DNA from: Desulfovibrio sp.
Lineage (GTDB): Bacteria; Desulfobacterota; Desulfovibrionia; Desulfovibrionales; Desulfovibrionaceae
Direction: 5' to 3'
Length of the DNA: 23,831 nucleotides
Assembly (NCBI GenBank): GCA_022837365.1
Contig: JALHHV010000026.1
Location: 1-23,831, forward strand
The notes under the pieces were generated by a model. It made no database searches and was not told the origin of the DNA. It was given only the letters and a program-made list of their open reading frames with translations. Each line of letters starts with the position of its first letter. Within the stretch, counting starts at the first letter, position 1. Below are positions 3,532 through 21,287 of this stretch, in pieces. Position numbers and translations under genes: made by a program.

Positions 3532-3622
3532 GGCCATGTTTACAGGTGGATCTTTCGCCCGTTGGCGGCGTCAGGCTTCGCCAGCCATTCCAACGAACGA
3601 AATCTCTCACTGTAAACACGCC
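3532..3622. repeat. Long imperfect palindrome between hmcD and hmcE
   Basis: TGTTTACAG (3537-3545) is perfectly inverted as CTGTAAACA (3610-3618). Further in, CGTTGG pairs with CCAACG, TTTCG with CGAAA, and TGGCG with CGCCA, so almost the whole segment can fold into one hairpin. Outside, GGC (3532-3534) and GCC (3620-3622) add a few pairs. No reading frame is present. All other hmc junctions from hmcA to hmcE are 1-21 bases, so this looks like an inserted palindromic element or an intra-operon mRNA control element. It shares only short words with the 16816/21009 repeats and is kept separate. Confidence 0.6.
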
Positions 3623-16411: not shown

Positions 16412-16807
16412 ATGTCCGACAAGAAGAAGTCCCTTACCGTATTCAGGAGCGACCGCCACGAGGACGTGGCCGCCATCATCGCCTCGGCCCTCATCGTGGT
16501 GGTGGTGCTGACCTACATGGCCTTCATCGTGCCTTCGGTGGGCATCAAGGCCCCGCAGGACGGCAAACTGGTGGAGATCTTCGTGGCCGAAGGCGCCGAG
16601 GTGAAGAAGGGCGACCCGCTCTATTCGCTGGAAGTGGTCAAGAAGAAGTGGGTCAACAACGTGATGGAAGAGAAGGTCGCGGTCGAGAGCTTCACCGCCA
16701 AGGCCAACGGCAAGGTGCTGAAGGTTTCCGGCAAGCCCGGCGACGCCGTGAAGAAGGGCAAGCAGGCCATCGTGGTCATGGAGCACGAGAAGGGCACCCT
16801 GCCTTAG
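16412..16807 (+). CDS. Membrane-anchored biotinyl/lipoyl-attachment-like protein
   Basis: A 131-aa protein. A basic N-terminus is followed by one membrane helix (about 18-42, VAAIIASALIVVVVLTYMAF) and then a single barrel-sandwich-hybrid domain. The first half is APQDGKLVEIFVAEGAEVKK (47-66) and the second half AKANGKVLKV (96-105) through GDAVKKGKQAIVVME. In biotin carriers the turn between the halves is EAMKM; here it reads EVVKKK (74-79) and the loop is longer. K77 aligns with the modified lysine, but modification is unproven. No carboxylase or decarboxylase subunits are nearby, so it is either a carrier or an HlyD-like adaptor for the transporter upstream. AGGAG precedes the start. A long hairpin repeat starts 9 bases after the stop. 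Confidence 0.75.
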   Translation: MSDKKKSLTVFRSDRHEDVAAIIASALIVVVVLTYMAFIVPSVGIKAPQDGKLVEIFVAEGAEVKKGDPLYSLEVVKKKWVNNVMEEKVAVESFTAKANGKVLKVSGKPGDAVKKGKQAIVVMEHEKGTLP

Positions 16808-16815
16808 GGGGATTG

Positions 16816-16942
16816 GCGCTATGGGCCTTTTGCCCTCTGCCTGCGTCAGAAAGATTTTTTATTCCGGTCGAATACGATAAGAGTATACTCCCTTCATAAA
16901 AAATCTCTCTTCCTTGGCAGAGAACAAAAATCCGCATAGCGC
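16816..16942. repeat. Dispersed hairpin repeat, copy 1
   Basis: A 127-base segment whose two ends are complementary: GCGCTATG (16816-16823) with CATAGCGC (16935-16942), CTCTGCC with GGCAGAG, and GATTTTTTAT with ATAAAAAATC. The loop contains GGTCGAATACGATAAGAGTATACTC. It matches the element at 21009-21194 over TTTTG-CCTCTG-CGTCAGAA, TTATTCCGGTCGA, TACGATAAGAGTA, ACTCCCT, CATAAAAA, CTCTTCCTTG and CAGAGAACAAAAATC. No coding potential. It could terminate the transporter operon as well as being a mobile or repetitive element. Confidence 0.85.
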
Positions 16943-17021
16943 AATATCCCAAGATCGCAGGCAATGAGGGCGGCAGGATGATCCTTCCGCCCGGCCGAAC
17001 CATCACGCAAGCCAGACATCC

Positions 17022-17046
17022 GGCGGGCGGCCATGCGCCGCCCGCC
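17022..17046 (+). promoter_or_regulatory. Hairpin just upstream of the universal stress gene
   Basis: GGCGGGCGGC (17022-17031) is perfectly inverted as GCCGCCCGCC (17037-17046) with a 5-base loop. It ends 10 bases before the GGAG ribosome site of the gene at 17072. It could be part of the leader, controlling translation, or an upstream terminator lacking a T-run. Confidence 0.4.
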
Positions 17047-17071
17047 ATACGCCTACGGAGAACATGCCCCC

Positions 17072-17539
17072 ATGACGCCTCCCGTGACGCCCCCCATGAA
17101 GCTGCTGCTCGCCCTCGACGACGGCCCCGGCGCACGCCGCGCCGTGGACGAGGCCATCCGCATCGCCCGCGAGAAGGGCGCCACCCTGGACGCCCTGTTC
17201 GTCATCGACGCCACGTGGGACGTGTTCACCGGGCACGACTGGCTGTCCGGCTGCAATTCGCGCATCGGCTTTCTTGAATACATGCAGGGGCTGGAGGAAA
17301 AGGCGGCGGCGGAAAGCGCGCGCGCCTTCCTGGAACTCCGGGGCGACATGCCCGGCGAACTGCTGACCGCGCCCGGCGACGTGGTGGACGTGATCCGCGA
17401 GCAGGCCGCCAAGGGCTACGACCTGCTGGTGCTGTCCAACCCGTTTACGCGCGGGCTTGAGGTGATGCGCGACGCCGTGGCCCGGCTGACCCGCGACGCC
17501 CCCTGCGACGTGCTGCTGGTGCGGGCCGACACGAAATAG
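17072..17539 (+). CDS. Universal stress protein (UspA family)
   Basis: A 155-aa single-domain UspA-like protein. The N-terminal strand MKLLLALDDGPGARRAVDEA and the middle motif DVVDVIREQAAKGYDLLVLSN are typical. The ATP-binding signature near the C-terminus (normally G-2X-G-9X-G-S/T) is degenerate: the sequence reads SNPFTRGLEVMRDAVARLTR, lacking the GSxS element, so it may not bind ATP. Start set at 17072 (MTPPVTPPMK), with GGAG 11 bases upstream; M9 at 17096 is an alternative without a ribosome site. It follows the hairpin repeat, so it is probably transcribed separately from the transporter pair. Confidence 0.85.
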   Translation: MTPPVTPPMKLLLALDDGPGARRAVDEAIRIAREKGATLDALFVIDATWDVFTGHDWLSGCNSRIGFLEYMQGLEEKAAAESARAFLELRGDMPGELLTAPGDVVDVIREQAAKGYDLLVLSNPFTRGLEVMRDAVARLTRDAPCDVLLVRADTK

Positions 17540-17626
17540 TCCGGTATCGCACGGGAATTTTGCCGCCCGGCCGCCCCTGCCTGCCGCACCCACGTGCCGG
17601 GCGGCCGCTGCGGTTGCCCACGGGCC

Positions 17627-17658
17627 TGCCGCCGCCGGAGACCGCTCCGGCGGCGGCA
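17627..17658. terminator. Strong bidirectional terminator hairpin between usp and mscL
   Basis: A 14-base arm (17627-17640, TGCCGCCGCCGGAG) is perfectly complementary to 17645-17658 with an ACCG tetraloop. It is followed on the plus side by TTGCGTTTG. It lies between the convergent usp and mscL genes. Confidence 0.7.
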
Positions 17659-17714
17659 TTGCGTTTGCGGCCGGGCGCCCGCCCGTGAAGCGGCACGGGC
17701 TGCCCGGCCGGTTC

Positions 17715-18167
17715 TCATGCCTGCGTGATGCCCGCGGTGCAGTGCGGGCAGCGGGTGGCGCGCACGTCGATCTTGCTGAAGCAGAACGGGCAGTCCTGCT
17801 GCTTGGGCGCGGCCGGGCCTTCCAGGCGCGTGCGCAGGGTGTTCACGCCGCGCACCAGCAGGAACACGGCAAAGGCCACGATGAGAAAGCTGACCACCGT
17901 GTTGGCGAACACGCCCGCGTTCAGCGTCACCGCGCCCGCATGCTTGGCGGCGGCCAGGCTGGCGTACGGGCCGGGGGTGGCCCCGTCGCGCAGGGTGACG
18001 AACAGGTCAGAGAAGTCCACGCCGCCCAGCACCAGGCCGATGGGCGGCATGATCACGTCGTCCACCAGCGACTTGACGATGGTGCCGAACGAGGCGCCCA
18101 GAATGACGCCCACGGCCATGTCCAGCGCGTTGCCCTTGACCGCGAATTCCTTGAATGCCTTCAGCAT
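17715..18167 (-). CDS. mscL: Large-conductance mechanosensitive channel MscL with C-terminal zinc ribbon
   Basis: A 150-aa channel subunit. The N-terminal helix and first membrane segment (MLKAFKEFAVKGNALDMAVG, then VILGASFGTIVKSLVDDVIMPP) and the second segment (about 88-106) match MscL, which opens under membrane tension to release solutes during osmotic downshock. A short insertion-rich periplasmic loop (55-80) separates them. The C-terminus replaces the usual bundle with a zinc ribbon, C126-X2-C129...C140-X2-C143, a variant known in some MscL proteins. AGGAGG lies 4-5 bases upstream of the ATG. Single gene, convergent with usp. Confidence 0.96.
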   Translation of the reverse strand: MLKAFKEFAVKGNALDMAVGVILGASFGTIVKSLVDDVIMPPIGLVLGGVDFSDLFVTLRDGATPGPYASLAAAKHAGAVTLNAGVFANTVVSFLIVAFAVFLLVRGVNTLRTRLEGPAAPKQQDCPFCFSKIDVRATRCPHCTAGITQA

Positions 18168-18873
18168 GGGTACCTCCTGCTGTACCGGGAATATGTATGG
18201 TATGCACCCTTCGGCGCGCGGCGGCAACCCGTGGATATCGAGATCGGTCCCCCCGGGCGGCGGTAGGGCCGGTGGGGCGGAATGGGGGCGGGGACAGCGG
18301 CGATGGGGCATCGCCAGCGGTGCGGGCTGGCCGCGCAAGGCCGGGAAACGCCAGCGGGGGCCGTCGCGGAGGGCGTTGCGCCCGCGTGACGGCGGAAACG
18401 GGAAATCTGCCGTGGCGCTCTTGACGGATGAAGCGATGCAAGGGTAGGGCAGTGCGCCCGGTTCGAAACGAGTGGGCGGCCCGCCCCCCGTCCCGTGCCC
18501 GGCGCGAGCGGGTACGGCAGGTCCGGAGCGCGTGCGCCGCATGCTGCTGGAACGGCGTATGCAACCCTGCGGGCGGTTGCTCCGGACGCCGTCAGGACGG
18601 GCCGCGAATCCGGCGCCGGGTTTTCCGGGACGAAGTGATGCCAAAAATGACAACGCGCGGCGTGCGGCCTGAATTTTGCCGCAACATCGCATGGTTGCCA
18701 TAACCGGGAGCATTTGACAGCCTTCCGGATTCCGTGGCATCAAAAAGTGTTGGTCGATGGTGGCATTCCTGCCCGACGCGCTGCATTGCCGTGCGTGCGC
18801 GGGGTGGTCGCCGTTGCGGCAATGTCTTTACAATATTGTTCACTCGTTTCGTCAACATTTCGGAGGATCGAGC
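18168..18873. other. Divergent intergenic region between mscL and livK
   Basis: 706 bases with no convincing gene on either strand; open frames here are arginine/proline-rich shadows. The mscL side has its Shine-Dalgarno and AT-rich CATACCATACATATT (18202-18188, minus strand), a possible -10 zone. The middle (18240-18600) is GC-rich with no clear structure. The livK side has a perfect -35-like TTGACA at 18714-18719 without a good -10, and a -10-like TACAAT at 18829-18834 overlapping the palindrome ACAATATTGT (18830-18839). Confidence 0.5.
18829..18839 (+). promoter_or_regulatory. Candidate livK -10 box overlapping a palindrome
   Basis: TACAAT (18829-18834) matches the -10 consensus at 5 of 6 positions, 39 bases before the livK ATG. 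The 10-base palindrome ACAATATTGT overlaps it. No matching -35 is present at 16-18 bases upstream (GGTCGC), so an activator may be needed, or the real start may be elsewhere. Confidence 0.35.
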
Positions 18874-19992
18874 ATGCGTAAAGGATGGTTCAAGGTCCTT
18901 GTTGCGGGTCTTGCCGTGGCCGTCATGGCCTGCCCGGCGTTTGCGGCGGATACCATCAAGTTCGGCGTGGCCGGCGCCCACAGCGGCGACCTGGCCTCCT
19001 ACGGGCTGCCCAGCGCCAACGCCGCCAAGCTGGTGGCCAAGATGGTCAACGCCAAGGGCGGCGTGCTCGGCAAGCAGGTGGAAGTCATTCCCCAGGACGA
19101 CCAGTGCAAGCCCGAACTGGCCACCAACGCGGCCACCAAGCTGGTGTCCGACGGCGCCGTCGTGGTGCTGGGCCACATCTGCTCCGGCGCCACCAAGGCC
19201 GCGCTGCCCATCTACAAGGAAGCCAACATCGTGCTGATGTCGCCCTCGGCCACCAACCCGGCCCTGACCCAGAGCGGCGACTACCCCAACTTCTTCCGCA
19301 CCATCGCCTCCGACGACCAGCAGGCCAGGCTGGGCGTGGACTTCACCATCGACAAGCTGGGCAAGAAGAAGATCGCCGTGCTGCATGACAAGGGCGACTA
19401 CGGCAAGGGCTACGCCGAATACGCCAAGCAGTTCATCGAAGAGGGCGGCAAGGGCACCGTGGTGCTCTTCGAAGGCGTGACCCCCGGCGCGGTGGACTAC
19501 TCCGCCGTGGTGCAGAAGATCCGCAACTCCGGCGCCGAAGCCGTGATGTTCGGCGGCTACCATCCCGAAGCCTCGAAGATCGTGCAGCAGCTGCGCAAGA
19601 AGCGCATGGACCTGCCCTTCGTGTCCGACGACGGCGTGAAGGACGACACCTTCATCAAGGTCGCGGGCAAGGACGCCGAAGGCGTGTACGCCTCCAGCTC
19701 CAGGGACGTGAGCTCGCTGCCCCTGTACAAGGAAGCCATCGAGGCCCACGTGAAGGAATTCGGCGCCGAGCCCGGCGCGTTCTACAAGGAAGCCTACGCC
19801 GCCTCGCTGGCCCTGCTGAACGCCATCGAAAAGGCCGGTTCCACCGATTCCGCCAAGATCATGAATGCCCTGCGCACCGAATTCGTCGAGACCTCGGTGG
19901 GCAAGATCAAGTTCGACAAGCGCGGCGATGCCGAGGGCGTCGGCTTCTCCATGTACCAGGTGAAGAACGGCAAGTACGTGGAACTCAAGTAG
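18874..19992 (+). CDS. livK: Branched-chain amino acid ABC transporter, periplasmic binding protein
   Basis: A 372-aa type I periplasmic binding protein of the LivJ/LivK family. The signal peptide (1-24) ends CPAFA before ADTIKFGVAG. The cysteine pair in DDQCKPELA and GHICSG fits the conserved disulfide of LivK, and SPSATNPALT is a typical ligand-site segment. It captures leucine, isoleucine or valine (or a related amino acid; specificity is inferred) for the LivHMGF permease. GGAGG lies 7 bases upstream of the ATG; an upstream in-frame ATG (18757) is rejected since it would bury the signal peptide. A terminator-like hairpin follows, suggesting livK is expressed above the permease genes. Confidence 0.95.
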   Translation: MRKGWFKVLVAGLAVAVMACPAFAADTIKFGVAGAHSGDLASYGLPSANAAKLVAKMVNAKGGVLGKQVEVIPQDDQCKPELATNAATKLVSDGAVVVLGHICSGATKAALPIYKEANIVLMSPSATNPALTQSGDYPNFFRTIASDDQQARLGVDFTIDKLGKKKIAVLHDKGDYGKGYAEYAKQFIEEGGKGTVVLFEGVTPGAVDYSAVVQKIRNSGAEAVMFGGYHPEASKIVQQLRKKRMDLPFVSDDGVKDDTFIKVAGKDAEGVYASSSRDVSSLPLYKEAIEAHVKEFGAEPGAFYKEAYAASLALLNAIEKAGSTDSAKIMNALRTEFVETSVGKIKFDKRGDAEGVGFSMYQVKNGKYVELK

Positions 19993-20017
19993 TTCACGGA
20001 AAGCATCCGATATGACA

Positions 20018-20051
20018 GGGGGGCGGGCCGCAGGCCCGTCCCCCGAGTTTT
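20018..20051 (+). terminator. Terminator/attenuator between livK and livH
   Basis: GGGGGGCGGGCC (20018-20029) pairs with GGCCCGTCCCCC (20033-20044) with one mismatch and a 3-base loop, followed by GAGTTTTG. It lies 26 bases past the livK stop and 45 bases before livH. Partial read-through would give much more binding protein than permease, as is common in liv operons. Confidence 0.7.
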
Positions 20052-20095
20052 GACGACGGCGCGGCCAGGTCCCGCGCATGCACGGGAAGGCACCA

Positions 20096-21004
20096 ATGGA
20101 TTGGCAGTATTTCTGGGAACTCTTCTTCGGCGGGCTGACGCGCGGCTCCATCTACGCGCTCATCGCGCTCGGCTACACCATGGTGTACGGCATCATCGAG
20201 CTGATCAACTTCGCCCACGGCGAGGTGTACATGCTGGGCGCGTTCACGGCGCTGATCGTGGCCGGTGCGCTCGGCATCTACGGCTTTCCGGCCCTGGCCA
20301 TCCTGATCATCGCCGCGGTGGTGGCGGTCATCTACTGTGCCGCCTACGGCCTGACGCTCGAAAAGATCGCCTACAAGCCGCTGCGCGACGCGCAACGCCT
20401 CTCGCCGCTCATCTCGGCCATCGGGATGTCCATCTTTCTCCAGAACTACGTCATCCTGGCCCAGACCTCGGACTTCATGCCGTTTCCCAACCTGGTGCCG
20501 CAGCCCGAATTTCTCGAACCCATCGCGCACATCATGGGCGCCAGCGAAGTGCTGATCATCGTCACCTCGGCCGTGGCCATGGCCGCGCTGACGCTGTTCA
20601 TCAAGTACACCCGCATGGGCAAGGCCATGCGCGCCACGGCCCAGAACCGCAAGATGGCCATGCTGCTCGGCATCGACGCCGACAAGGTAATCTCGCTCAC
20701 CTTCGTCATCGGCTCGTCGCTGGCGGCCGTGGGCGGCGTGCTCATCGCCTCGCACGTGGGGCAGGTGAACTTCGCCATCGGGTTCATCGCGGGCATCAAG
20801 GCGTTCACCGCCGCGGTGCTCGGCGGCATCGGCTCCATTCCGGGCGCCATGCTGGGCGGCCTTGTGCTCGGCTGGTGCGAAAGTTTCGCCACCGGGTACA
20901 TTTCGAGCGACTACGAGGATGCGCTGGCCTTCGCGCTGCTTGTGCTCATCCTCATCTTCCGGCCTTCGGGCATCCTGGGCAAGGCCAAGACGCAGAAAGT
21001 CTAG
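20096..21004 (+). CDS. livH: Branched-chain amino acid ABC transporter permease LivH
   Basis: A 302-aa inner-membrane permease with about eight hydrophobic helices. GSIYALIALGYTMVYGIIELINFAHGE near the N-terminus and ALGGIGSIPGA-type sequence (AAVLGGIGSIPGAMLGG) near the C-terminus are LivH hallmarks; the latter is in the region that contacts the ATPase. Start at 20096 (MDWQYFWELF) has GGGAAGG 6 bases upstream; an in-frame ATG at 20078 lacks one. It is separated from livM by 283 bases occupied largely by hairpin repeat copy 2, which is unusual in this otherwise tight operon. Confidence 0.95.
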   Translation: MDWQYFWELFFGGLTRGSIYALIALGYTMVYGIIELINFAHGEVYMLGAFTALIVAGALGIYGFPALAILIIAAVVAVIYCAAYGLTLEKIAYKPLRDAQRLSPLISAIGMSIFLQNYVILAQTSDFMPFPNLVPQPEFLEPIAHIMGASEVLIIVTSAVAMAALTLFIKYTRMGKAMRATAQNRKMAMLLGIDADKVISLTFVIGSSLAAVGGVLIASHVGQVNFAIGFIAGIKAFTAAVLGGIGSIPGAMLGGLVLGWCESFATGYISSDYEDALAFALLVLILIFRPSGILGKAKTQKV

Positions 21005-21008
21005 CGGC

Positions 21009-21194
21009 GCCGCCACAAGGTGCCTTTTGTCCTCTGTCTTCGTCAGAACGCCTTTTTATTCCGGTCGAGTACGATAAGAGTACGCGCTGCGGTCGCCATC
21101 CGTAAGGCTCGCAAACTCGCCTAACGGCTGCCGCACTCCCTGCATAAAAAGTCGCTCTTCCTTGACAGAGAACAAAAATCCCGCTTGTGACGGC
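21009..21194. repeat. Dispersed hairpin repeat, copy 2, with a nested palindrome in the loop
   Basis: A 186-base element starting 5 bases after livH. Outer ends pair (GCCG 21009-21012 with CGGC 21191-21194; CACAAG 21014-21019 with CTTGTG 21184-21189), then CTCTGTC with GACAGAG, and CTTTTTAT with ATAAAAAG. Compared with copy 1, the loop carries 52 extra bases (21083-21134) between GATAAGAGTA and ACTCCCT. This insert is itself palindromic: GCGG/CCGC, CCGT/ACGG and AGGC/GCCT around TCGCAAACTC. It lies inside the liv operon between livH and livM, so it is probably transcribed and does not block expression completely. Confidence 0.85.
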
Positions 21195-21287
21195 ACCGCC
21201 AAGCTTGCGGTAACTCGCAGGCCACGGGCCGCCCCGCCGGATGCCGGAACACGCGGGACATAACGACGCATTCCGAGGAAAGTCTTC

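Follow-up and report, generated by a model that had tools for sequence, protein, structure and literature searches.

A mobile palindrome placed on stop codons in Desulfovibrionaceae, with arms probably kept paired at the DNA level

Two hairpins in a stretch of Desulfovibrio sp. DNA share loop and arm words, and differ in one stem in such a way that pairing is preserved. Are they parts of RNAs selected for their fold, or copies of a mobile DNA element? The stretch, hereafter the window, comprises the 23,831 nucleotides of contig JALHHV010000026.1, which is contig C216 of a draft genome (G000) made of 589 contigs and 75% complete. An earlier note on this DNA had proposed a dispersed family of hairpins selected for the folded form, either a non-autonomous mobile element or an RNA family of 3' untranslated regions (3'-UTRs). 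We give a probability of about 0.66 to the reading that both hairpins represent copies of a mobile palindrome, some 143 bp long, non-coding and non-autonomous, the pairing of which is kept by a process acting on DNA and not by selection on RNA.

The sequence is not confined to the two places noticed at first. BLASTN finds 48 stretches matching copy 1 in the genome of origin, and a covariance model built from 50 copies recognizes 113 places in the same draft (E 0.01); chance resemblance is therefore excluded, and the proposed dispersed family is real. The model matches 82 to 121 places in each of eight genomes of the genus (E 0.001). These counts are lower bounds; scoring covered 150 of 719 candidates in the draft, and 150 candidates per genus genome. 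At least one match is present in 39 of 119 sampled Desulfovibrionaceae genomes, representing 15 of 44 genera, in a scan in which 27 candidates per genome were scored under a stricter filter. In public species genomes, at least 99 stretches match a degenerate pattern of the core, and almost all of them are assigned to the Desulfovibrionaceae by title or by placement. Nitratidesulfovibrio liaohensis, N. oxamicus, Desulfovibrio sp. A2, termite-gut and other metagenome-assembled genomes (MAGs) are among the hosts of the matches listed. Two records are titled Betaproteobacteria, and the 8416-base contig of their MAG recurs as G037, which belongs to the same bacterial family. Two diverged adjacent copies lie in a MAG titled uncultured Clostridia (L050:4239-4493), where either misbinning or a wider host range may be at work. 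Among the viral contigs searched, one carries the core pattern (L290:6350-6376); a copy of the B type defined below had no match at E 1e-3 in phage and plasmid collections.

The family is not described in the literature that could be searched. Full-text searches of open-licence PMC for Desulfovibrio, Desulfovibrionaceae or Nitratidesulfovibrio gave no description of it among the titles and starts of abstracts listed, and the main text of a survey of stem-loop families (PMC2267715) does not mention Desulfovibrio. Rfam has nothing at gathering score in the window, and nothing on either copy at E values up to 5 (16780-21210). No tRNA or tmRNA is found within the window.

The copies, their parts and the adjacent stop codons are located in the window as follows.

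16805..16807, + strand: TAG stop of a biotin/lipoyl-attachment gene (16412-16807); copy 1 begins at the next base
16808..16950, + strand: copy 1, A type, palindromic element of 143 bp; folding energy -48.4 kcal/mol, z -7.0 against dinucleotide shuffles; covariance-model match 136.8 bits
16835..16841, + strand: copy 1, 5' strand of P2, CTCTGCC, paired with 16916-16922
16844..16847, + strand: copy 1, CGTC motif, unpaired, at the 5' foot of P3
16866..16892, + strand: copy 1, core GGTCGAATACGATAAGAGTATACTCCC, apical hairpin and flanks
16910..16915, + strand: copy 1, TTCCTT motif, unpaired, at the 3' foot of P3
16916..16922, + strand: copy 1, 3' strand of P2, GGCAGAG, paired with 16835-16841
21002..21004, + strand: TAG stop of a permease gene (20078-21004); copy 2 begins at the next base
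21005..21200, + strand: copy 2, A type with nested insert, 196 bp; folding energy -75.5 kcal/mol, z -4.6 against dinucleotide shuffles; covariance-model match 96.3 bits
21032..21038, + strand: copy 2, 5' strand of P2, CTCTGTC, paired with 21164-21170
21041..21044, + strand: copy 2, CGTC motif
21063..21082, + strand: copy 2, core as far as the insert, GGTCGAGTACGATAAGAGTA
21085..21135, + strand: copy 2, insert of 51 bp belonging to a second palindrome family, delimited against insert-free orthologues
21164..21170, + strand: copy 2, 3' strand of P2, GACAGAG, paired with 21032-21038
3535..3620, + strand: third copy, internally deleted; covariance-model match 35.3 bits, E 2.5e-8

The outermost helix of the element is P1 (about 17 bp), followed inwards by a T-run opposite an A-run and by P2 (7 bp). 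An internal loop, whose 5' side has CGTC and whose 3' side has TTCCTTG, separates P2 from P3 (at least 12 bp), and an apical hairpin containing GGTC, AAGAGT and CTCCC closes the structure. A core of 27 bases is common to many copies. Of the two main types, A has the stem CTCTGCC, and B has the stem CGTTGGC together with outer arms GGGGCTGTTTC...; further types exist. The stem words reported for the two copies, CTCTGCC/GGCAGAG and CTCTGTC/GACAGAG, are exact. Boundaries were set by arm extension, plain folding having overshot the ends; the outer arms reach 16950 and 21200, farther than first indicated, and start at the base directly after each stop codon, so that the reported adjacency to stop codons stands, and the reported gaps of 9 and 5 bases do not. 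Similarly, the palindromic insert of copy 2 is present, and measures 51 instead of 52 bp. The gene 3' of copy 1 encodes a universal stress protein; copy 2 is flanked by two permease genes for branched-chain amino acids, both on one strand. Internal deletion is one way in which copies decay. The orthologue of the shortened third copy in G007 (L288:3058-3195) is full-length.

Compensatory changes are not confined to the two copies. They have been counted in 97 copies chosen by the core motif alone and without fold filter (102 pattern matches, less 3 dropped for edge or N and 2 duplicates); core columns are invariant in this set partly because the core is the search pattern. A first set, A1, formed by the 50 of the 97 sequences that pass a fold filter, is biased, and the unfiltered set is relied upon. 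Pairing is seen in 88.1% of 3624 cells; sliding the partner by 1-3 columns lowers this share to 38-48%, and shuffling letters between sequences lowers it to 70.7%. Both sides have changed in 744 cells (138-212 when slid), and two-sided changes affect 31 of 38 pairs (23-26 when slid). The observation that outer arms are unrelated between copies yet complementary within each copy also holds generally. In 225 copies the P1 arms have a mean pairing score of 10.8, and 75% reach 8; when arms are swapped between copies the mean falls to 2.7, and 10% reach 8. Unpaired bases are in turn conserved. The G, T, C and A columns of the CGTC tag are at least 90% conserved in the 97 copies, and the first C is less so because insert-bearing copies read GGTC. 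The first pair of P3 is A-U in 188 of 199 copies; the second is A-U in 101 and G-C in 88 of 198.

Placement right after stop codons, seen in the two copies, is a general property of the family. In 140 of the 214 copies with enough flank, an open frame 150 or more codons long terminates 0-40 nt outward of the inner P1 end; control positions shifted by 300 or 700 nt give 4-11 of 190-225. The commonest distance from the stop to the inner end of P1 is 17 nt, and the stop is TAG in 105 of the 140. Gene ends on the antisense side are fewer (39/207; controls 4-11). Of 270 unique copies, 170 have a sense stop at their 5' boundary and 16 have an antisense stop at their 3' boundary, 6 copies being counted in both groups. 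No stop occurs at either boundary in 90, part of which are copies with the 5' arm displaced by inserts. CTAGG is the commonest word at the stop-codon boundary of the element; in 1.2 Mb of G007 (L230-L289), CTAG is rare (299) in comparison to GTAG (2291) and CTAC (2059).

Position behind stop codons would suit intrinsic transcription terminators that resemble each other by chance, and a terminator-like match is found in the 5' arm of copy 2, with none in copy 1. No T-run follows P1 in either copy, however, copy 2 separates two permease genes on the same strand, and some copies (L114, L241) are followed by distinct G+C-rich hairpins that do have T-runs. Terminator identity was rejected on position and conservation, and is hardly credible for elements sharing a core of 27 bases and found as insertions private to one genome.

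Two such private insertions have been polarised. At one site (C339) the genome of origin alone, among the eight, is occupied, by an antisense element (CTCAAGTA|element|AAGCTGG), and the other seven genomes are unoccupied and read like CTCAAGTAGCTGG. At the other (C123) again the genome of origin alone hosts the element (GCGTCGTA|element|TAACGG), and the other seven have none, the stop being TAG in five, TAA in one and TGA in one. Both private copies are inserted within the stop codon. A duplication of TA is consistent with the sequence at C123, and shows one mismatch at C339. The element begins with G, so a TAA stop becomes TAG, and the gene keeps a TAG stop. Both copies feature B-type outer arms, with a second-family palindrome inside; P1 therefore moves with the element. 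Given that the orthologous sites are unoccupied in seven of seven genomes, the element is mobile, and in these two cases it inserted into stop codons, in support of the mobile alternative in the earlier note.

Within the genus, 95 orthologous pairs are occupied in both genomes, and in 29 pairs the second genome is empty, decayed or carries other sequence; both lists contain artefacts from neighbouring or reverse copies. At the site of copy 1, the genome of origin and G006 share the same A element, a B element lies at the stop in G005, apparent B remnants that have lost the interior are seen in G001 and G002, and G003 and G004 are empty; the gene end was not found in G007. The site of copy 2, the end of the livH gene, is occupied in all eight genomes, by A elements in seven and by a B element in G007, and a related insert is found in the genome of origin and G004 only. 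Independent insertion together with loss is the best reading of such a change of type at a single gene end. Sharing of gene ends between genera is rare (2 of 32 clusters). One is the end of a gene for an outer-membrane-like protein (a guess), the other of an apparent DNA polymerase I gene, in G105, G046 and MAG STF2_171. Five tandem elements spaced by 152 bases lie 3' of a polA-like gene in G105 (L187:1501-2244), and elements are likewise found behind polA-like genes at L198 and L088. Three tandem elements are located by short, phage-like-looking reading frames in G090 (L207:1350-1786).

Strong covariation, sense orientation directly 3' of stop codons, conserved unpaired motifs and a livH gene end occupied in 8/8 genomes would all fit a 3'-UTR RNA, in which the transcribed hairpin would serve mRNA stability or processing and would be selected for its fold. 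If an RNA fold is maintained, G-U pairs are expected to be common and A-C rare. In the cells of P2-P4, G-U occurs 55 times and A-C 78 times in 199 distinct copies, 11 of the A-C coming from one column; an earlier count on 267 rows gave 68 and 108. Copies with displaced arms (less than 26/38 or 20/25 paired cells) were left out of these counts, and decayed copies are thereby removed. The tRNAs from 1.2 Mb of G007 serve as a control, a lenient one because ARAGORN prefers stems that pair; the 230 pairs counted in their acceptor and anticodon stems include 9 G-U and no A-C. The inner stems thus argue against selection at the RNA level as the cause of pairing, and compensatory changes do not support the inference, drawn in the earlier note, of selection for the folded form. 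Orthologous genes with unoccupied or decayed sites, the few gene ends common to different genera and the lack of Rfam matches also speak against a 3'-UTR RNA, which we consider unlikely.

Correction in DNA is suggested by like-typed copies at 38 orthologous sites. Single departures from pairing are G-U in 7 instances, A-C in 15 and other in 16; beside these 38 singles, 26 double Watson-Crick changes are found, 21 of which are transitions. As estimated from the single rate, independent substitution would yield well under one double change. Double changes without wobble signature fit arm-to-arm correction in DNA, combined with the spread of well-paired copies. Complementarity of the stems would persist because a mismatched arm is recopied from its partner, either by template switching at replication or by repair of a hairpin intermediate; passages in PMC8794818 describe template switching as creating and repairing stems. 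A putative enzyme may recognise the folded strand via the conserved unpaired motifs CGTC, GGTC...CTCCC and TTCCTTG, with TA as the probable insertion target.

Several data weigh against a mobile palindrome with arms corrected in DNA. The double changes are mostly transitions (21/26), which are also expected from selection through mismatched intermediates, and 11 of the 26 come from two sites, possibly replaced copies. In P1, the outer arms, one column has G-T as its consensus; with this column set aside, G-U (64) exceeds A-C (42), which also favours the 3'-UTR RNA. The target duplication is not clean at every unoccupied site: in addition to the mismatch at C339, L077 and L180 have TG for TA, and none is seen at L159. 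The private C123 copy has no GGTC...GAGTA core, which was lost before or after insertion. The sense bias (170 vs 16) is unexpected for plain TA insertion, although one of the two private copies is antisense. Finally, a partner enzyme was not found in searches for IS630, IS200 and IS4/IS5-type transposases, other transposases and integrases not having been searched.

IS630-type DDE_3 domains are missing in all the eight genus genomes. DDE_Tnp_1 (IS4/IS5-type) has one match in each of four of the eight, and element motifs are absent at those loci. The Y1_Tnp domain (PF01797) of IS200 and RAYT transposases, present in 38 of 118 genomes of the Desulfovibrionaceae, has one weak match each in G004 and G005, and none in the genome of origin, G003, G006 and the one-contig G007, all rich in elements. 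A long autonomous version was not found at the 159 loci analysed, where 96 pairings join a 5' half to a 3' half at 70-190 bases; of 76 orphan halves, many belong to copies that have diverged or carry inserts, and others lie in genes and match by chance. Bare P1 hairpins were also sought as pre-existing targets, and none of 6 regular-expression matches is convincing by eye.

The folded single strand could alternatively be moved by an enzyme of the integron-integrase or IS200/IS605 kind with a strand-specific target. This would account for the sense bias and for unpaired bases that are conserved while stems vary and still pair; the slight excess of A-C over G-U in sense, equivalent to G-T over A-C on the bottom strand, is a weak hint in the same direction. 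Lack of Y1_Tnp in four element-rich genomes, in a search that did not extend to integrases, and the antisense orientation of one of the two private insertions make such a mover quite improbable.

The insert of copy 2 belongs to a second palindrome family with the core CCGTA...CTCG...TAACGG, and the supposition that the element is modular is thereby confirmed. The second family has 35 loci in 1.2 Mb of G007, 26 of which are in or beside an element according to a motif rule that misplaces at least one, L286:5514, located in the loop of another hairpin. Inserts occupy three fixed sites in many elements (before CGTC, before GGTC, between GAGTA and CTCCC), and all three are filled in some (L286 near 11600, L235 near 8750). 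Outside elements, the palindromes at L252 and L286:5514 are in the loops of other strong hairpins. Tentatively, a two-tier system of mobile hairpins may be envisaged, in which a putative enzyme, neither IS200/RAYT nor IS630, would read folded DNA by unpaired motifs including CGTC. The first palindrome would be aimed at stop codons, mostly in one orientation, the second at the three unpaired sites of the first and at other hairpin loops, and every move or slip of replication would restore pairing in DNA. As a whole this scheme remains doubtful.

The element resembles ERIC/IRU, Correia and RUP, portrayed in the relevant passages of PMC2229807 as non-coding imperfect palindromes of 100-160 bp, with TA ends, many copies per genome and a target duplication that the element may share. 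It differs from them for docking on stop codons mostly in sense, and for terminal arms that vary and yet pair; no insertion sequence (IS) with the same ends was found, and ERIC was compared by description. The Yersinia palindrome YPAL/RU-2 (about 168 bp), as presented in the same source, has filled and empty sites and targets at or next to dyad symmetries; it lacks TA termini, and its duplications span 3-26 bp, whereas here TA lies in the stop codon. Pneumococcal BOX elements, in the part of PMC3049150 that deals with their structure, are modular, folded, dispersed repeats with terminal inverted repeats. The element is similarly modular, but its modules are whole palindromes nested at three fixed sites. 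CGTC-tagged repetitive extragenic palindromes (REPs) feature an unpaired CGTC at the 5' foot of the hairpin, as the element does, and a first pair that is nearly always A-T; the portions of PMC3733652 concerned with them report no known transposase. They are 20-40 bp long, with stems of 8-9 bp starting with two A-T pairs and a CCA-like tail, whereas the element has about 143 bp, two further outer helices, a TTCCTTG tail and a second pair that is mixed A-U/G-C. In contrast to the GTAG REP/RAYT system, no resident Y1 transposase was found in G000, G003, G006 and G007. The element is short, non-coding and dispersed (113 places), and has terminal inverted repeats, given by the pairing of P1, as miniature inverted-repeat transposable elements do; such elements typically have a transposase partner or a complete IS bounded by the same ends, and none was found in the families searched (DDE_3, Y1_Tnp, DDE_Tnp_1).

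A functional RNA is usually considered proven when compensatory base changes are found. The family described here, with about 100 copies in each of eight related genomes, shows strong covariation without the inner-stem wobble signature of RNA, and offers natural material for testing to what extent RNA selection can be imitated by nothing more than template switching or hairpin repair. The two-tier system, if true, would provide a mechanism for orphan CGTC-tagged repeats. The family also represents a mobile element that settles on stop codons and leaves genes unbroken, the partner enzyme of which is a testable question.

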